From Roseovarius mucosus DSM 17069 (GTDB lineage Bacteria > Pseudomonadota > Alphaproteobacteria > Rhodobacterales > Rhodobacteraceae), in the NCBI RefSeq assembly GCF_000768555.3, contig NZ_KN293980.1, positions 220,947 to 284,946 of the forward strand: a DNA stretch of 64,000 bases, written 5' to 3'. Made by a program: the position numbers and the translations under genes. The first letter of the stretch is position 1. Every line of letters begins with the position of its first letter. Positions 1,968-26,626 of the stretch are shown here, piece by piece. The notes below the pieces were generated by a model. The model was not told the origin of the DNA, ran no database searches, and saw nothing but the letters and a program-made list of their open reading frames with translations.

Positions 1968-2387
1968 ATGGACCTGCGCCCGATCACCCAAGATTTTACC
2001 GTATCCCCGCAGATCGAGGTGGGGGATGTGGCCGCTGTTGTCGATGCCGGATATCGTTCGATCCTTTGCAACCGCCCGGATGGCGAGGATTACGGGCAAC
2101 CGGCCTATGATGCCGTTGCCGCCGCAGCAGAGGCGGCGGGGCTTGCGGTGCGGTGGGTGCCTATTGTGTCGGGGCAAATGACACAGGCCGCATTGGATGA
2201 GTTTCGCGCAGCACTCGATGAGATGCCCAAGCCCATCCTTGCCTATTGCCGGACCGGCACGCGCTGCACGATGCTGTGGAGCATAACGCGGTTTGACGAT
2301 CTGGGCGGGGATGAAATCCTGCGCGCCACCGCCGAGGCGGGCTATGATATGTCCGGTCTCGTGGCGCAGCTTGAACGCCGGCAATGA
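1968..2387 (+). CDS. TIGR01244/BLH-type protein phosphatase-like protein
   Basis: 139 residues if translation starts at the ATG at 1968, which has GGAGAG five bases upstream; an in-frame ATG at 1941 is possible but lacks a good site. The protein resembles the beta-lactamase-hydrolase-like (DUF442) phosphatase fold. It has the P-loop CRTGTR at residues 94-99, a CX5R signature of cysteine-dependent phosphatases, so it keeps a plausible active site. Its stop overlaps the start of the next gene in ATGA, pointing to translational coupling with the following three genes. Its substrate is unknown; the neighbourhood of Kdo/lipid A enzyme relatives is the only clue. Confidence 0.8.
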   Translation: MDLRPITQDFTVSPQIEVGDVAAVVDAGYRSILCNRPDGEDYGQPAYDAVAAAAEAAGLAVRWVPIVSGQMTQAALDEFRAALDEMPKPILAYCRTGTRCTMLWSITRFDDLGGDEILRATAEAGYDMSGLVAQLERRQ

Positions 2388-3103
2388 CCGACTGGGCCGT
2401 CATCGGCCATGACGGAGAGAGGGCGCGCGCCTTTGTGATGCAGGGTGCGCGGATTGTTCAAGAGGCCACGGCCCCCGATGAGTCGGCCGCGCGGGCCATG
2501 CTGGCATCGATGCCGCACAGGATTTTCCGGGTTGGAGAAGGGCAGGGGGATCGCCTGCCAGCACAGATCATGCCGCAGGGTGCACGGGGGCTGGCACCGC
2601 TTGTGCAGGACAACCCGCCCGATGTCATCGACGCCTGGGTGCGTCTGTTGCTGATCGGGCTCTTGCAGGGACGGGCGCAATGGGACGGTGTGGCGTGGGT
2701 GGTCGGGCGCGACCTGAGCCATTGGGTGCATCTGAGTGCGGGCGAGGCTGTGAGTTGCCAGAGTTTCATGACGCCAAGGCTGGTGCGGCTCTTGGGGGGC
2801 GCCGCAGAGCCTTGTGATGTGGCCCTGGCCGATACGTTGAGCCGCCCGGAGCGTCTGGCGGCGTATCTGCGTGGGGCTGAGGTGCGCGGGTCTGCGACGG
2901 CGCTGACGGGTCACCTTTTGGCGGCGGAACTGGCGGCCGCGCGCCCCTATTGGCTGGGACAGAATGTGGTGCTGGTCGCGTCGGGTGACGCGGCTGAGAG
3001 CTATGCCGTTGCGCTGCTTGGGCTTGGCGTGCCGGTTGAGAGGATCGCGCCCGAGAGCCTGATTTCGCCTGCTCTTGTGGCGATTGACGGGGCGATGGCA
3101 TGA
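2384..3103 (+). CDS. divergent 2-dehydro-3-deoxygalactonokinase (DgoK)-like protein
   Basis: 239 residues, shorter than the roughly 290 of DgoK kinases. The overall order of blocks matches the family: a beta-strand start, the NPPDVI segment at 77-82, an HWV strand and a C-terminal segment with ALLGLGVPVERI. The catalytic signatures are missing. The N-terminal phosphate-binding DWGTS-type motif is replaced by GHDGERAR (8-15), the GEE block by DAW, and the PGTHSKW block by GRDLSHW (108-114). It is therefore probably not a working sugar kinase. The start overlaps the stop of the preceding gene and the stop overlaps the next start, so the group is coupled. Homology is moderately sure; function is unknown. 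Confidence 0.65.
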   Translation: MTDWAVIGHDGERARAFVMQGARIVQEATAPDESAARAMLASMPHRIFRVGEGQGDRLPAQIMPQGARGLAPLVQDNPPDVIDAWVRLLLIGLLQGRAQWDGVAWVVGRDLSHWVHLSAGEAVSCQSFMTPRLVRLLGGAAEPCDVALADTLSRPERLAAYLRGAEVRGSATALTGHLLAAELAAARPYWLGQNVVLVASGDAAESYAVALLGLGVPVERIAPESLISPALVAIDGAMA

Positions 3104-4320
3104 GCCGGTCGCTCAGCCTCTCGGCCTATCTGGCCTATGCGCGCCGGGCTGGGCGCGCAGGGCCTGCGCCGGATCAGGCGCGCCCGCCGGGGCCGCTTAT
3201 CTGGGCGCATGCGGTCGATGCGGCGCGGGCCGATACGCTGGTGCATCTGGCCGAGCGTTTGGCGGCGCAGAGGCGGGGTCTTCATCTCTTGCTGACCACG
3301 GCGAGCACGACACCCGCGCGCACCGACACGGCGGCGTCGGTCGTTTGGCAGACGGTGCCCGAGGACAACCTGCCCGCCGCCGAGGCATTTCTGGGCCATT
3401 GGCGGCCTGATATATGCCTCTGGACCGGGGGCGATTTGCGGCCTGCGTTGTTGATTTGTGCCGCGCGCATGAACATTCCTCTCTATCTTGTCGATGCCGA
3501 TGAAGAGAACCTGGATCGGGCAAGCTGGCGCTGGTTTCCCGACATGCCACGTGCAGTCTTGGGGTTGTTCACGGAAATCCTGACACGAACCGAAGCGGCG
3601 GCGCGGCTGGTCCGCCGGTTTGGGGCGCCCGAGCGGATCGTGACCGTGACGGGCGCGTTTCAGGAAGGGGCGATGACGCTACCCTTTAGTGTCGCCGAGC
3701 GCGAAGAGATGGCGGGCCTCTTGCGCAGCCGTCCGATCTGGCTTGCGTCGCGTATCCACCGCGACGAGCTGGCCACGGTGCTGGAGACGCACCGAGAGGT
3801 GAGCCGTCTGGCGCATCGTAGCGTTCTGATCGTGGTGCCGGACGATTTGCAGGATTGCGCCGAGATGCGCGCCACGCTGGACGCGCAGGGCTGGCGGGTC
3901 GCGGTCTGGTCCGAAGGCGAGATGCCAAGCGAGACAACGCAGGTAATTCTGGCCGATACGCGGGGCGAGATGGGGCTGTGGTATCGTCTGGCCCCGGTGA
4001 CATTCATGGGCTCGTCGCTGGTCTCGGGCCAGCATGGGCGCGATCCCAACGAGCCTGCCGCGCATGGATCGGCGATCCTTTATGGCCCCAACGTTGGCCG
4101 CTACCTCAACCGGTATTCGCGCTATGCCGAGGCCGGGGCGGCGCGGATCGTGCGTGACAGCGCGACGCTCACGGCGGCGGTGCAGCGGTTGATTGCGCCG
4201 GATCAGGCGGCGGTGATGGCCCATGCGGCCTGGGATGTGGCCTCGCGCGGGGCGGCGGTGACCGACCGGATTCAGGATATGCTGCTGGATCGGCTGGATC
4301 GGCTGGACGCCGCGCGATGA
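3100..4320 (+). CDS. divergent Kdo transferase (KdtA/WaaA)-like protein
   Basis: 406 residues, the usual length for KdtA, which moves Kdo from CMP-Kdo to lipid A precursor at the inner membrane. The GT-B layout is visible: GPLIWAHAV at 31-39 in the acceptor domain, ADTRGEMGLWYRLAP in the donor domain, then PNEPAAHGSAILYGP, matching the family's NPLEPAA block. Two catalytic or acceptor motifs are altered. The SVGE glutamate that acts as base in WaaA falls on DAAR (Arg43), and the ESELWPN block is TGGDLRPAL (109-117). There is no clear N-terminal membrane anchor. Coupled on both sides by 4-bp overlaps. Probably a non-canonical or inactive paralogue; the alignment was done by eye. Confidence 0.75.
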   Translation: MSRSLSLSAYLAYARRAGRAGPAPDQARPPGPLIWAHAVDAARADTLVHLAERLAAQRRGLHLLLTTASTTPARTDTAASVVWQTVPEDNLPAAEAFLGHWRPDICLWTGGDLRPALLICAARMNIPLYLVDADEENLDRASWRWFPDMPRAVLGLFTEILTRTEAAARLVRRFGAPERIVTVTGAFQEGAMTLPFSVAEREEMAGLLRSRPIWLASRIHRDELATVLETHREVSRLAHRSVLIVVPDDLQDCAEMRATLDAQGWRVAVWSEGEMPSETTQVILADTRGEMGLWYRLAPVTFMGSSLVSGQHGRDPNEPAAHGSAILYGPNVGRYLNRYSRYAEAGAARIVRDSATLTAAVQRLIAPDQAAVMAHAAWDVASRGAAVTDRIQDMLLDRLDRLDAAR

Positions 4321-5312
4321 GCCTGCCCGCGCATTGGTTCACGCCACCGGACCGACCCGGCCTGCGCGCGCGGTTGTTGACGCCTTGGGCGCACTGGCGG
4401 GCGCGCGGCAAGCGGGTGGATGGCGACGGCTGGCGTGCGCCGGTGCCGCTGATCTCGGTCGATGCATTGGCGGCGGGGGGTGTGGGTGCGTTGCCTGCGG
4501 TGCTGGCGGTGGTCGGGCATATACAGCGGTTGGGGTTTGCGCCTGTGATCCTTGCGCGGGGCGGGTCGGGACCGCTCCGGGTAGAGCCGCGCCGCCATGG
4601 GGCGGCAGAGGTTGGGGCGGCTGCGCTGCTGGCTGCGGATTTCGCGCCGACCTGGGTTGCGTCCGACTGGGCATCGGGCGCGCGGGCGGCCTTGGCTGAA
4701 GGCGGGGCCGATTGTCTCGTGATGATGGGGGGGCTGCGCGATCCGGCGCTGGTCAAGGATGTATCCATTGGCGTGGTCGATGCGGTGCGCGGGTTTGGCA
4801 ACGGACGCTGTCGCCCGGCGGGGCCGCTTGCGGAACCTCTGGCGGTGGCGTTGGCGCGGGTTGATCTGCTGATCCCGGTCGGGCCGCGTTCCGCCCAAGA
4901 GCGATTTGCAGAGCTTTGGGCCGAGCGGCTCGACATGCCAAGGATGCCGGGCGATCTGCAGCCGCTGCCCACCGGCATGGAGTGGGCGGGGGCGCGGCTC
5001 TTGGCCTTTGCGGGGGGTGAAGATCCGGGGCTCTTCTTTGCCACCTTGCGCGGGCTTGGGGCAGAGCTTGTGCGCTTTGAGGCGTTGGCGACAGAGGAGG
5101 CCTATGGCTCGGCCCTGCTCGCGCGGCTGGAGCGCGAGGCCTACCTGCGGGCTGCGCAACTGGTCACGACGGAAGAGGACGCCGTGCGTTTGCCAGAGGC
5201 GTTTCGGCGTAAGGTCTTAAGCCTGCCGATGCGGCTGAATCTGCCGGACATGGCCCCACTGGATGCGGCCCTGACGCGTGTGGGATTGCGTCAGGGCGGC
5301 AAGGTCAGTTGA
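4317..5312 (+). CDS. divergent tetraacyldisaccharide 4'-kinase (LpxK)-like protein
   Basis: 331 residues, normal LpxK length. LpxK phosphorylates the lipid A disaccharide at the inner membrane using ATP. Family segments are clear: FTPPDRPGLRARLLTP at the N-terminus, and VVDAVRGFGNGRCRPAGPLAEP (154-175, compare DA.RGFGNGR.LPAGPLREP). However the Walker A GGTGKTP is GGVGALP at 54-60, without the lysine and threonine. The DDGFQ block carrying the metal and catalytic aspartates is GGLRD (138-142), and the GDEP block is AEVG (97-100). It is predicted to be unable to bind or hydrolyse ATP in the LpxK manner. A canonical lpxK should exist elsewhere in the genome if the cell makes lipid A. Confidence 0.8.
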   Translation: MSLPAHWFTPPDRPGLRARLLTPWAHWRARGKRVDGDGWRAPVPLISVDALAAGGVGALPAVLAVVGHIQRLGFAPVILARGGSGPLRVEPRRHGAAEVGAAALLAADFAPTWVASDWASGARAALAEGGADCLVMMGGLRDPALVKDVSIGVVDAVRGFGNGRCRPAGPLAEPLAVALARVDLLIPVGPRSAQERFAELWAERLDMPRMPGDLQPLPTGMEWAGARLLAFAGGEDPGLFFATLRGLGAELVRFEALATEEAYGSALLARLEREAYLRAAQLVTTEEDAVRLPEAFRRKVLSLPMRLNLPDMAPLDAALTRVGLRQGGKVS

Positions 5313-6618
5313 TCGTGCTGTCCAGCCCTTCGGGCTGACCCACCACCACAAAGGTGAGCGCCTCGGGATCAAGGAGGTCGCGCGCGACGCGGTTGATGTC
5401 CTCGAGCGTGACGGCATTCACCTTGTCATTGCGGGTGGTGATGTAATCGGTCGGAAGCCCCTCCATCTGCATGCCGACGGCGATGTCGGCGATGGGGCCG
5501 TTCCCCTCGAATTGCAGGGGATAGGCGCCGGTCAGATAGGTCTTGGCGTTTTCCAGCTCTTCGGGGGTGACGCCGTCGGTGTGCATCCGCGCCCATTCGT
5601 CGCGAATGACGCTAATAGCCTCGGCGACGCGGTCATTGGCAGAGGCGACCGAGCCCATCCAAAGCTGGGCCGCGTCCTTGTCGGCAAGATAGGAATAGAC
5701 ACCATAGGTCAGCCCGCGTTTCTCGCGCACCTCGGTCATCAGGCGGCTTTCAAAGCCGCCACCGCCGAGGATATGGTTGAGGATATAGGCGGCGAAGAAA
5801 TCCGGATGATCGCGGTCAATGCCGGGTTGGGCAAAGGCCACGATGGATTGCGGGGTGGCAAAATCCGTGACCTTGACGCCGCCGGGCAGGTTGGGATTGG
5901 CCGCGCCGGGCAGGGGGGCGCCGGTTTCGGGCAGGTCGCCAAGAAGCCTGTCGAGGAGGGTGGCAAGCTCTGCCTCGGTGATGTCGCCCACGGCAGAAAC
6001 ATAGATCCGGTCCCGCGCAAGCGCCCCCTGATGCGCGGCCACGATGTCATCGCGCGTGAGCGCGGTCACGCTCTCGGCCGTGCCATCAAGCGATGATCCA
6101 TAAGGATGATCGCCGAATACGAGGCCGTCAAACGCCTTTGCCACGATATCGCGCGGGTTAGTTTGGGCGGAATTGATAACCGAGAGTATTTGCGCGCGCA
6201 CGCGCTCGATGGCGTCCGGGTCAAAGCGCGGTTCCACGAGGCTGGCGCGCAAGAGATCAATCGCCTGATCGCGGTTCTCGGTGAGGAATCGGGCTGAGAC
6301 GCTGACGCGGTCGTCATTGACGGAATAGCGGAAGTTGGCGGCGAGGGATTCAGAGGCGCGCGCAAAGCCCTGCGCGTCCATCTCGGCGGCCCCTTCTTCG
6401 AGAAGCCCGACCATGAGGTTTGTCACGCCACGCTTGCCCTCGGGGTCAAGCGAGCCGCCGCCGCGAAAGCGCAGTTCGAGCGCAACGAAGGGGATCGAGT
6501 GATCCTCGACCAGCCAGGCATTCAGTCCGCCGGACGTGGTGATTTCCCGCACGTCGATATCTGCGCGTGCGGGGAGAGCGGCCATCAGCAGAACAAAACT
6601 CAGAACAAAACGGATCAT
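5305..6618 (-). CDS. M16-family peptidase, non-zinc subunit
   Basis: 437 residues from the ATG at 6618 with a signal peptide (MIRFVLSFVLLMAALPARA). Two M16 repeats are present. The position of the HXXEH zinc motif reads NLMVGLLEEG, so no zinc site exists. The second repeat retains GLTYGVYSYL, the substrate-binding R/Y-type element of non-catalytic partners. Such proteins pair with an active M16 subunit in a periplasmic heterodimer. The active partner is the gene immediately upstream, which overlaps it by 4 bp. The 3' end overlaps the LpxK-like gene on the opposite strand by 8 bp. Confidence 0.9.
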   Translation of the reverse strand: MIRFVLSFVLLMAALPARADIDVREITTSGGLNAWLVEDHSIPFVALELRFRGGGSLDPEGKRGVTNLMVGLLEEGAAEMDAQGFARASESLAANFRYSVNDDRVSVSARFLTENRDQAIDLLRASLVEPRFDPDAIERVRAQILSVINSAQTNPRDIVAKAFDGLVFGDHPYGSSLDGTAESVTALTRDDIVAAHQGALARDRIYVSAVGDITEAELATLLDRLLGDLPETGAPLPGAANPNLPGGVKVTDFATPQSIVAFAQPGIDRDHPDFFAAYILNHILGGGGFESRLMTEVREKRGLTYGVYSYLADKDAAQLWMGSVASANDRVAEAISVIRDEWARMHTDGVTPEELENAKTYLTGAYPLQFEGNGPIADIAVGMQMEGLPTDYITTRNDKVNAVTLEDINRVARDLLDPEALTFVVVGQPEGLDSTIN

Positions 6619-7955
6619 TGCGTGACCTCCGGTGCCATAAGCCAGCCTGTGACGGATTGCGTGCGGTCCAGCACATCGCGCGCGGCCTGCATGATCTCTT
6701 CGGCGGTGGTGGCCTGGATGAGAGCGGGCCATGCCTGCACATCGGCCACGGTCAGGCCTTGGGTCAGTGCCTGACCATAACGCTGGGCCAAGCCCCCGGC
6801 ATCGTCACGGGCATAGGTTTCCGAGGCGCGGAACTGCATCTTGATACGCTCAAGCTGGTCGGCATCCACGCCGGTTTCGAGAAAGGTGATCAGCGCCTCG
6901 TCCATCGCGGCTTCGGCCTGTTCCAGAGTGACACCGGGGGCGGGCACGACAAAGAGGTCAAAGGTGGTGTCATCGAGCGACAGGCCCGAGTAGGACGCGC
7001 CGACCTGCACCGCCGTCTGGGTCTGAAACTGAAGTTTCTCGACCAGAAGCGAGGTTTGACCGCCGCCCAGAATATCGGCGAGCAGGGTCAGTGCCGCGGC
7101 TTTTTCCTGTGCGCCGCTGTCGCGCTCGGGTGCCAGATAGGAGCGGGTGACATAGGGTTGCGATACGCGCGCGTCGCGCATGGTGATCCGGCGTTCCGCC
7201 AGTTGCGGTGGCTCTTGCGGGCGGACGCGTTCGGGCAGGTCGGGATTGGCGGCGATGGGGCCGTAATAGGTTTCGGCCAAGGCGCGCACATTCTCGGGGG
7301 TGACATCGCCCGCGACGATCAAGATGGCATTGTTGGGGGCATAGAAGGTCCGGTAGTAATCAAGCGCCGCGTCGAGATCGAGCGCCTCCATTTCGTGTCG
7401 CCATCCGATGATCGGCACGCCGTAGCGGTGATTGAGATATTGCATCGCGTTCTTTTGTTCACGGAACAGCGCGCCGGGGCTGTTTTCGACCCGTTGATTG
7501 CGCTCTTCGATGATCACGTCGCGCTCTGTCAGGATGTCCGCCTCGTCCAGTTGCAGATTGGTCATGCGGTCCGATTCCATCCGCATGATCAGCTCAAGAC
7601 GGTCGGCGGCGATACGTTGGAAATACGCGGTATAGTCATAGCTGGTAAAGGCGTTGTCCGAGCCGCCGTTGCGCGCCACGGTGGCGGAAAATTCGCCCGG
7701 TGCCATGGTCTCGGTGCCCTTGAAGAGCAGATGTTCGAGGAAATGCGCGACGCCCGACACGCCCGGTGTCTCGTCGGCGGACCCGGCACGATACCAGAGC
7801 ATCTGCGTGACCACGGGCGCGCGGTGATCCTCGATCACCACCACATCAAGCCCGTTGTCGAGCGTGAAATGCGTCACCTGATCGGCAGTCGAGGCCGATG
7901 TCGGGGCAGCAAACGGCAAAAGGGCCAGCGTCAGCCCGGCGAGGAAATGTCGCAT
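6615..7955 (-). CDS. M16-family zinc metallopeptidase, active subunit
   Basis: 446 residues from the ATG at 7955, beginning with a signal peptide that ends near TSAS. The zinc-binding inverted motif HFLEH is present in GVSGVAHFLEHLLFKGT, with the distal glutamate in the downstream helix (TERDVIIEERNQR). These are the hallmarks of insulinase/pitrilysin-family peptidases. It likely acts in the periplasm as a heterodimer with the following non-zinc subunit, to which it is coupled by an ATGA overlap. The substrate is unknown; degradation of small peptides is typical of the family. Confidence 0.93.
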   Translation of the reverse strand: MRHFLAGLTLALLPFAAPTSASTADQVTHFTLDNGLDVVVIEDHRAPVVTQMLWYRAGSADETPGVSGVAHFLEHLLFKGTETMAPGEFSATVARNGGSDNAFTSYDYTAYFQRIAADRLELIMRMESDRMTNLQLDEADILTERDVIIEERNQRVENSPGALFREQKNAMQYLNHRYGVPIIGWRHEMEALDLDAALDYYRTFYAPNNAILIVAGDVTPENVRALAETYYGPIAANPDLPERVRPQEPPQLAERRITMRDARVSQPYVTRSYLAPERDSGAQEKAAALTLLADILGGGQTSLLVEKLQFQTQTAVQVGASYSGLSLDDTTFDLFVVPAPGVTLEQAEAAMDEALITFLETGVDADQLERIKMQFRASETYARDDAGGLAQRYGQALTQGLTVADVQAWPALIQATTAEEIMQAARDVLDRTQSVTGWLMAPEVTQ

Positions 7956-24447: not shown

Positions 24448-24513
24448 GCTTAGGCGCGGGCTTGCGCGTGAGGGGGTGGCGGTCTACCTCAGGGCGGCAA
24501 CAAGGAGATGCCG

Positions 24514-25860
24514 ATGGCGAAAGCGCTCGATGAATTGACCCATGCGCTGATTGACGCGGCCCTGAAGGCCGGGGCCGAGGCGGCGGATGCCATTGCCTTG
24601 CGCGGGCAGTCGATCACAATCGACATGCGCGGCGGTGCGCTGGAACAGGCAGAGCGTGCCGAGGGGGTGGACATCGGTCTGCGCGTGCTGATCGGTGGGC
24701 GGCAGGCGAATGTGTCGGCCTCGGATACCGGGGCTGCGACGATTGCGGCCTTGGCCGAGCGGGCCGTGGCGATGGCGCGGGAGGCGCCGGTTGATCCCTA
24801 CGCCGGGCTGGCCGAGGCGGGGCAATTGGCGAGGGATTGGGATGTGGCAGCGCTGGAGCTGTGCGATGCGGCACCTGAGCCTGCCCCCGATGGCTTGGCT
24901 CGCATGGCGCAAGAGGCGGAGGCGGCGGCCTTGGCGGTGTCCGGTGTGACCCAAGTGCAATCGGCGACGGCGGGCTATAGCCAAAGGGCCGTGCATATCG
25001 CGGCGAGCAACGGGTTCTCGGGCGGTTATGCGCGCAGCGAAACAGGGGTTTCCTGCGTGGCAATCGCCGGATCGGGCACCGGGATGGAGCGCGACTATGA
25101 TGGCGACAGCCGGATTTTCGCCAGCGATTTGCGGGATGCGTCGGACATCGGGCAAAGGGCCGGTCTGCGCGCAGTGGAACGTCTGGGCGCGCGCCGTCCG
25201 CGCACCGGGGCCTATCCGGTGCTGTTTGACGAGCGCATTTCCGGCTCCTTGATCGGGCATCTGCTGGCGGCGGCCAATGGGGCGTCGGTGGCGCGGGGAT
25301 CGTCCTGGCTGCGGGAACGGTTGGGCGAGCAGGTGCTGCCCGAGGCGCTCTCGGTTCTGGAGGACCCGCACCGTCCGCGTGTGAGCGGATCGCGCCCGTT
25401 CGATGCCGAGGGGCTGCCGACCGCCAAGCGGGCGATTGTGCAGGATGGCGTGCTGATGGGCTGGACGCTCGATCTGGCCACGGCGCGCAAGCTGGAGATG
25501 CAGAGCACGGCCAATGCCACGCGCGGCACGTCTTCTGCGCCCTCGCCGGGGACGTGGAATATCGCACTCACGCAAGGCACGCAGAGCCGCGAGGATCTGA
25601 TCCGCGAGATGGGCACGGGCCTGTTGGTCACGTCGATGATCGGCTCCACCATCAATCCCAACACCGGCGACTATTCGCGGGGGGCGGCGGGCTTCTGGGT
25701 TGAAAATGGCGAGATCAAATGGCCGGTCAATGAATGCACCATCGCCGGCAGCCTGCCCGAGATGTTGCGCCAGATGGTCCCGGCCAATGATGCACGGCTG
25801 CATGTGGGCCGGGTGGTGCCATCGCTGCTGATCGAGGGGTTGACGCTTGCCGGGGAATGA
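24514..25860 (+). CDS. pmbA: TldD/PmbA family metallopeptidase-like protein
   Basis: 448 residues from the ATG at 24514, chosen because AAGGAG lies at the right spacing; an ATG at 24508 directly abuts that site. PmbA (TldE) is the partner of TldD in a protease complex that matures microcin B17-type peptides and degrades CcdA in E. coli. Family blocks: FSGGYARSETG, GTGMERDYDGDSRIF, MQSTANATRGTSSAPSPGTWNI and TINPNTGDYSRGAAGFWVENGEI. The E-subunit type lacks the TldD zinc motif HEXXXH, as expected. The CysQ-like gene starts within its last 14 bases. Confidence 0.92.
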   Translation: MAKALDELTHALIDAALKAGAEAADAIALRGQSITIDMRGGALEQAERAEGVDIGLRVLIGGRQANVSASDTGAATIAALAERAVAMAREAPVDPYAGLAEAGQLARDWDVAALELCDAAPEPAPDGLARMAQEAEAAALAVSGVTQVQSATAGYSQRAVHIAASNGFSGGYARSETGVSCVAIAGSGTGMERDYDGDSRIFASDLRDASDIGQRAGLRAVERLGARRPRTGAYPVLFDERISGSLIGHLLAAANGASVARGSSWLRERLGEQVLPEALSVLEDPHRPRVSGSRPFDAEGLPTAKRAIVQDGVLMGWTLDLATARKLEMQSTANATRGTSSAPSPGTWNIALTQGTQSREDLIREMGTGLLVTSMIGSTINPNTGDYSRGAAGFWVENGEIKWPVNECTIAGSLPEMLRQMVPANDARLHVGRVVPSLLIEGLTLAGE

Positions 25861-26626
25861 TCTGGCACTCTTGATCGAGGCGGCGCATGAGGCGGGCCGG
25901 ATTGCGACCGCCTTTGTGGGTGGGCCGCTCGACATGCAGGACAAACCGGGTGGTGCCGGGCCGGTGACGGCGGCGGATCTGGCGGTCAATGCGATGCTGG
26001 TAGAGCAATTGCGCGCGGCGCGGCCTGACTATGGATGGCTGTCGGAAGAGACTGAGGATAACGCGGCACGGCTAGGGGCCGAGCGGGTGTTCATTGTCGA
26101 TCCCATCGACGGCACCCGCAGTTTCATCGAAGGCAATCACGACTGGGCGCATTCTCTGGCGGTGGTGGAGCGTGGCGTAGTCATTGCCGCGGCGATTTAC
26201 TTGCCGATGCGCGACAAGCTCTACGCTGCCGCAGCAGGGCATGGGGCCACGCTGAACGGGGTGCCCATCCGGGCCACGGCGCGGGCAGATCTGGTGGGCG
26301 CGTCGATATTGGCGTCCAAGCCCAATTACGCGGCCGAGAATTGGCGAGGGGGCCAAGTGCCCGAGATGGCGCGCGCCTTTCGCCCGTCGCTGGCCTATCG
26401 CCTGAGCCTTGTTGCGGAGGGGCGTTATGACGCGATGATGACGCTGCGCCCATCCTGGGAATGGGACATTGCGGCGGGCGATCTGATCCTGCGCGAGGCG
26501 GGGGCGGTCACATCGGACCGCCGCGCCGTGCCGCTCCGGTTCAACAATCCGGTGCCGATGGTCGATGGCGTGCTGGCGGCAAACCCGCTGTTGCATGGGG
26601 CGCTGCACGCCGCCTTGGCCGCATGA
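25847..26626 (+). CDS. inositol monophosphatase/CysQ-like 3'(2'),5'-bisphosphate nucleotidase
   Basis: 259 residues with a TTG start at 25847 overlapping pmbA; GAGGGG lies about seven bases upstream and no nearby ATG is in frame. The metal-dependent, lithium-sensitive phosphatase motifs are present: WLSEET near 65, DPIDGTRSF near 84 and WEWDIAAGDLIL near 204. The arrangement fits CysQ-type nucleotidases that clear PAP as well as inositol phosphatases; which substrate applies cannot be told. The coupling to pmbA is common in this group of bacteria. Confidence 0.88.
   Translation: MPGNDLALLIEAAHEAGRIATAFVGGPLDMQDKPGGAGPVTAADLAVNAMLVEQLRAARPDYGWLSEETEDNAARLGAERVFIVDPIDGTRSFIEGNHDWAHSLAVVERGVVIAAAIYLPMRDKLYAAAAGHGATLNGVPIRATARADLVGASILASKPNYAAENWRGGQVPEMARAFRPSLAYRLSLVAEGRYDAMMTLRPSWEWDIAAGDLILREAGAVTSDRRAVPLRFNNPVPMVDGVLAANPLLHGALHAALAA

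Follow-up and report, generated by a model that had tools for sequence, protein, structure and literature searches.

Sphingomonads are Alphaproteobacteria without lipid A. An outer membrane without lipopolysaccharide (LPS) is also reported for Rhodothalassium salexigens, in the accessible part of PMC11762602. Judging from their genes, several lineages of Roseovarius resemble these organisms in having a Gram-negative envelope without LPS, but they differ from them in that the loss appears to have been repeated within one genus, and in that LpxK, the KdtA-family protein KdtA2 and LptD are kept. LpxK is tetraacyldisaccharide 4'-kinase (PF02606, TIGR00682); in the A. aeolicus enzyme, mutants of K51, T52, D138, D139 and H261 show 850- to 8100-fold losses of kcat (accessible part of PMC6286764). 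We analyzed a stretch of 64,000 nucleotides from Roseovarius mucosus DSM 17069 (contig NZ_KN293980.1, positions 220,947 to 284,946; hereafter the window), which contains a four-gene operon (1968-5312, + strand) whose last gene encodes an LpxK-like protein (4317..5312, +). This protein has lost the kinase active site, in a genome without matches to LpxC or LpxB, and the evidence supports a putative pseudoenzyme that is maintained by selection.

The window LpxK matches the kinase family over its full length, in profile (PF02606, 172 bits) and in fold, but it falls under the NCBI lpxK cut-off (82 versus 92 bits) and lacks the equivalents of A. aeolicus K51, T52, D99, E100, D138, D139 and H261. 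The former P-loop reads GGVGALP for GGTGKTP (4476..4496), with loss of K51 and T52 and of the Walker A pattern GGxGKT; GAAA replaces GDEP (4614..4625), with loss of D99 and E100; the former Walker B reads MGGLR for DDGFQ (4725..4739), with loss of both its aspartates, D138 and D139; and the general-base His, H261, is replaced by Glu (5094..5096), all on the + strand. The D99/H261 dyad is represented by A101 and E260. Alignments show that the old positions hold other residues, which rules out catalytic residues at shifted positions. Below we number the seven catalytic residues K58, T59, D101, E102, D137, D138 and H260, which correspond to the A. aeolicus residues in the order given above, by alignment and shared motifs.

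The host genome (G000; 4.24 Mb, 17 contigs, 99.97% complete) has no match to LpxC and none to LpxB. It has one LpxK-family match and one KdtA-family match, both in the operon, and the search for canonical kdtA or lpxK elsewhere in the genome gave no further match to either family. We infer that the host makes no lipid A. In a survey of the family, LpxC was found in 286 of 295 genomes and in 256 of the 260 that are well assembled, the four without it being G000, G101, G136 and G229. Within the genus Roseovarius it was found in 70 of 84 genomes and 62 of 72 well-assembled ones, and the ten well-assembled genomes without it are G000, G302, G316, G327 (Roseovarius sp. 217), G334, G335, G340, G342, G351 and G376 (R. 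tolerans DSM 11457). Among these and other labeled genomes, G340, G342 and G351 are metagenome-assembled genomes of Roseovarius, G303 is R. azorensis and G318 is R. nubinhibens. LpxB was missing from all 12 LpxC-negative genomes searched (the ten Roseovarius, G229 and G101) and present in 8/8 LpxC-positive controls. LptD was found in 10/10 LpxC-negative Roseovarius, in all 8 controls and in G101; among the genomes tested, G229 alone lacked it. An LpxK homolog was found in 81 of 84 Roseovarius genomes, including all 72 that are well assembled; none was found in the LpxC-negative G333 (73% complete) and G356 (81%) or in the LpxC-positive G365 (72%).

Across the genus, the catalytic loss in LpxK tracks the loss of lpxC beyond chance, and this association is well supported. 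The motifs GGxGKTP, GDEP, DDG and DHQ are kept in all 69 LpxC-positive Roseovarius genomes that have LpxK, and LpxK is eroded in 11 of the 12 LpxC-negative genomes that have it. All seven catalytic residues are lost in 8 of the 11 eroded copies. None of the 11 retains T59 or E102, and the others are kept in one (K58), three (D101), two (D137), three (D138) and one (H260). Sites that we read from the alignment as corresponding to the A. aeolicus lipid-phosphate contacts R119, H143 and R171 are mostly lost too (R118 is kept in 1/11, N142 in 2/11 and R172 in 2/11). A literature search at the level of titles and abstract openings, with most subscription journals outside its coverage, found no report of an inactive LpxK or of Roseovarius having lost lipid A, and the accessible part of PMC4511512 does not mention lipopolysaccharide or LPS.

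The eroded gene is still held by purifying selection. In four pairs from the window's clade omega is 0.15-0.23, with likelihood-ratio test statistics of 36-114 against omega = 1, and it is 0.12-0.13 for G332 compared with G335 and with G302 (the omega values of G302-G335 for LpxK and G000-G327 for KdtA2 were saturated and are left out). All 11 eroded copies have open frames of 297-352 codons, and in 1000 runs of a neutral simulation the frame stayed open in 2.7%, 0.2% and none at 0.2, 0.43 and 0.86 changes per site. There are 135 sites that are at least 95% conserved in LpxC-positive LpxKs, and 41 of them are kept in every eroded copy. The LpxK-like gene is the last in its operon, and a convergent M16 peptidase gene shares 8 bases with its end, so no downstream gene depends on it and no polar effect protects it. 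With its catalytic residues lost while other residues are fixed, LpxK would still have a job that never needed kinase activity.

The eroded LpxKs of Roseovarius fall into four lineages, one formed by the window's clade and G327, one by G302, G332, G335 and G340, and two by G334 and G337 singly. In a KdtA2 tree of 86 rows there are six losses of LpxC on well-supported branches and, if the partly altered G229 is counted as eroded, five changes of LpxK state; KdtA2 rejects a single clade for the two main eroded lineages (p = 0.0001). A tree of LptD, whose gene is distant from the operon in the G316 chromosome, implies that LpxC was lost four times in a sample of 18 Roseovarius, some of its forks being weakly supported. 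A careful LpxK tree of 28 rows, built without the eroded columns, agrees with separate origins. We reject a single origin on these KdtA2, LptD and LpxK trees, a quick 86-row LpxK tree alone being undecided. The two main lineages changed in parallel: 13 sites changed in both, counting sites with the same residue in at least three of the four rows per lineage, and 8 of them have an identical new residue, compared to 1.1 expected by a rough BLOSUM62 estimate. The identical replacements are G49D, T59L, E102A, P103A, D138G, N142D, V175L and V305M, several of them at the old active site.

The gene immediately upstream of lpxK (3100..4320, +) encodes KdtA2, which matches the WaaA/KdtA family profile (PF04413, 84.5 bits). 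It mostly retains ADTxGExGLWY and the NEP segment of the donor domain, but lacks SVGE, ESELWPN, PRHPER and the hydrophobic stretch with which canonical KdtA is equipped at its N terminus, and its NF004387 score of 200 bits is far under the cut-off of 617. Aligned with the canonical KdtA proteins of G278, G364 and G369, it has DAAR in place of SVGE (3217..3228, +), at what we take to be the catalytic Glu site of KdtA. The naming of that site draws in part on PMC6286764. SVGE and ESELWP are present in 3/3 canonical KdtA copies, whereas SVGE and ESELW occur in none of the 84 KdtA2 copies that cover these sites (86 were aligned and 2 are cut), so the missing Kdo-transferase signature is not specific to this window. 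Each of the three LpxC-positive Roseovarius tested carries a canonical kdtA elsewhere in the genome (E = 4e-51 to 2e-55) as well as a diverged copy beside lpxK (E = 7e-20 to 1e-23), two genes of the KdtA family in all. Because the two coexist, KdtA2 is not the ortholog of canonical kdtA, and the idea that it is the decayed copy of a sole kdtA is ruled out because relatives carry canonical kdtA as well; by these comparisons KdtA2 is an old paralog. The seven LpxC-negative Roseovarius tested, a set from which G334, G335 and G376 were left out, have only the diverged copy.

KdtA2 is under tight constraint: in the window's clade its omega is 0.026-0.05, and 69 of its 71 conserved sites are kept in both main lineages with eroded LpxK. 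Relatives of KdtA2 occur at 26 loci that have a name, and 19 of these, the closest among them, are labeled Roseovarius. At each of the 30 LpxK loci that scored best in the family survey, which represent 30 genera and are not a random draw, a KdtA-family gene lies within 1.5 kb of lpxK; the gene lacks SVGE at 27 of these loci and is canonical at three (L007, L021 and L024). The KdtA2 profile also matches canonical KdtA (261-269 bits), and counts made with it are at the level of the family. At L007, L021 and L024, from three genera, the KdtA beside lpxK has both SVGE and ESELW, an arrangement that may be ancestral. As a KdtA-like protein without the catalytic motif, KdtA2 is easily mistaken for a Kdo transferase and is likely to be mis-annotated.

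The second gene (2384..3103, +) encodes a short DgoK-like protein, the only DgoK-family match in the host genome. It matches the DgoK family (2-dehydro-3-deoxygalactonokinase) in its C-terminal part (PF05035, 41 bits) and, over 79% of the query, shares 36% identity with a Ruegeria protein annotated as DgoK. The Ruegeria relative sits in a galactonate operon, whereas the window gene has no adjoining aldolase; in the window protein DWGT has become GHDG and GTHSKW has become GRDLSHW, and it is approximately 60-70 residues shorter. In the LpxC-positive G369 the DgoK-like protein already lacks DWGT, GTHSKW and the same 60-70 residues. Its omega of 0.10-0.19 in the window's clade indicates purifying selection. 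An AF2 model, built from only 4 sequences, has a pLDDT of 40, and the best match in a sequence search of PDB had E = 0.33. We predict that the DgoK-like protein is a pseudoenzyme.

A preliminary description of this operon had listed four genes overlapping by ATGA: a phosphatase with an intact CX5R active site, followed by DgoK-, KdtA- and LpxK-like proteins that had lost their catalytic signatures together. The ATGA overlaps are confirmed at all three junctions between the four open reading frames (ORFs) in 1968-5312. The altered motifs it gave (GRDLSHW, DAAR, TGGDLRPAL, GGVGALP and GGLRD) are all present in the translations, and its three family assignments hold at the profile scores given above. 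The first protein (1968..2387, +) was misread: its motif is CRTGTR, which is CX4R and not the CX5R of protein tyrosine phosphatase-like enzymes. It belongs to the BLH/TIGR01244 family (PF04273, 107 bits), matching the NCBIfam 'sulfur transferase' TIGR01244 at 132 bits (cut-off 86), so its product is more likely to be a sulfur transferase than a phosphatase; its gene has an omega of 0.06-0.08 within the window's clade. The simultaneous loss of three activities is ruled out by the KdtA2, DgoK-like and LpxK alignments, which give three separate histories: KdtA2 is altered in all scorable copies and the DgoK-like change is already present in LpxC-positive G369, so the losses did not coincide, and of the three proteins LpxK is, by alignment, the only one whose active site was lost here. 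That the LpxK-like protein is a pseudoenzyme is borne out by its sequence, with the addition that it is kept by selection.

The ATGA coupling of all four genes recurs in four genomes (G000, G351, G342 and G316). G327 and G369 have the same four genes in the same order, but there KdtA2 is preceded by a gap. All six of these genomes carry the sulfur-transferase-like and DgoK-like genes upstream of KdtA2; the two genes were not seen at the other ten loci from Roseovarius, some of them cut off a short way upstream or downstream. Because both genes also precede KdtA2 in LpxC-positive G369, neither is linked to the loss of lipid A. An ORF of approximately 80 codons (M-QRLHLVFGGEL...) lies upstream of KdtA2 at 8 of 20 loci (L083, L084, L086, L088, L090, L091, L092 and L094); the window's clade showed no such ORF, and the copy in G369 (L082) seems to be truncated. 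The genes pmbA and cysQ, which in the window are about 19 kb from the operon (24508..26626, +), are directly upstream of KdtA2-lpxK at 8 loci from other genera, and are not found together beside KdtA2 at any of the 15 Roseovarius loci examined with flanks.

Our reading of these results, to which we give a probability of roughly 0.55, is that LpxK has a kinase-independent role, probably together with KdtA2, in an outer membrane that lacks lipid A and still uses the Lpt system. Several Roseovarius lineages including the host would have lost lipid A synthesis, with canonical kdtA gone where tested, and LpxK, freed from the pathway, would have shed the residues that bind ATP, carry out catalysis and hold the substrate phosphate, but kept a different group of residues unchanged. 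A structural role seems likeliest, in which LpxK would work with its constant neighbor KdtA2; since KdtA2 has no hydrophobic segment at its N terminus, contact with the membrane may come from LpxK. Such a membrane-anchored LpxK-KdtA2 pair is the mechanism we favor, though as a specific proposal it is rather doubtful. That LptD is retained suggests continued transport to the surface of some molecule other than lipid A, and LpxK and KdtA2 might build or organize an amphiphile that takes the place of lipid A in the outer membrane and leaves through LptD.

Several observations weigh against this reading. Adjacency is the only link between LpxK and KdtA2, and the absence of lipid A is read from genes only, lpxA, lpxD, lpxH/lpxI and lpxL not having been searched. 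Some assemblies are incomplete (G332, 65%; G337, 86%; G334, 94%), so their missing LpxC could be a gap, and of these only G334 was tested for LpxB. R. tolerans (locus L102, lpxK at 6218-7225) has no LpxC or LpxB match yet its LpxK is fully intact, apparently due to a recent loss of the upstream pathway, and erosion is only partial in G327 (four of seven residues lost; D101, D137 and D138 kept), G334 (three lost; K58, D101, D137 and D138 kept) and G337 (four lost; D101, D138 and H260 kept). The 28-row LpxK tree rejects a single eroded clade weakly (p = 0.0498 and 0.022), the quick 86-row tree did not reject it (p = 0.53, the one-clade tree being slightly likelier), and an independent-pairs test, with the partly altered G229 counted as eroded, gave 5 of 6 (p = 0.0625). 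The 41 invariant residues are sampled from four lineages only, 8 of the 11 rows coming from two clades, and sequence identity is lower for the dead LpxK (79-92%) than for KdtA2 (96-98%), a faster pace of change that is compatible with slow decay too. Finally G101, from another genus, has no LpxC, LpxB, LpxK or KdtA match, so the LpxK-KdtA2 pair is dispensable there. This genome (100% complete, one contig) still has LptD (L132), 30% identical to that of the window's host. G229 (L086), likewise from another genus of the family, has no LpxC, LpxB or LptD match and keeps LpxK next to a KdtA-family gene; its LpxK has an intact P-loop and DHQ, with EED replacing DDG.

If LpxK were simply decaying, it would be a relic left after lipid A loss and kept because too little time has passed. 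Its faster evolution than its operon neighbor would then be expected, as would the missing LpxK in G101, and the intact LpxK of R. tolerans and that of G327, with K lost and DDGFQ kept, would resemble an early and a middle stage. We consider decay unlikely, however, because omega = 1 is rejected in all four pairs, all eroded copies have open frames whereas neutral simulations seldom stay open, 41 residues are invariant, and the position of the gene, last and facing a convergent neighbor, gives it no protection by a polar effect. The parallel identical replacements, several of them at the old active site, could instead mark a rebuilt site in an LpxK-like fold with different chemistry, perhaps without ATP. 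Those replacements strip nucleotide and phosphate contacts, though, and the old P-loop varies between and within lineages (GGVGALP, GGVGPLP and GSVGNLP; GDVALP, GDVLP and AGNLALP), a variation that a new catalytic site would scarcely tolerate, and repurposing as an enzyme seems quite unlikely.

Lipid A production might also continue, through enzymes that differ or have diverged too far to be detected, with the LpxK variant still working; LptD is kept, and our searches detect known families only. We find this improbable given that LpxC and LpxB are jointly missing from near-complete genomes, and canonical KdtA from the seven tested, while sister species are positive by the same searches, and given that residues whose single mutation reduces the kcat of A. 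aeolicus LpxK by the factors cited above (PMC6286764, accessible part) are gone. The preliminary description had suggested a module of pseudoenzymes acting as a scaffold or regulator of Kdo/lipid A synthesis, and the operon's proteins are indeed homologs of pathway enzymes without their signatures. In a host with no match to LpxC or LpxB and no canonical KdtA, and with the three proteins altered at different times, such a role is very improbable.

A broader form of the kinase-independent reading is possible, at not far short of an even chance: the non-kinase function of LpxK may be ancient in Rhodobacteraceae and shared with KdtA2 and Lpt, so that lipid A losses recurring across Roseovarius, the one in R. 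tolerans among them, would lift the constraint of catalysis and expose it, the same positions being erased in parallel lineages and Lpt exporting a substitute amphiphile. Related species apparently without lipid A carry an LpxK that is intact (R. tolerans), half-eroded (Roseovarius sp. 217) or dead but conserved (the window), and this series separates the catalytic from the non-catalytic constraints on one enzyme. Cultured marine bacteria that seemingly lack lipid A yet have LptD would make the cargo of the Lpt system a testable question.

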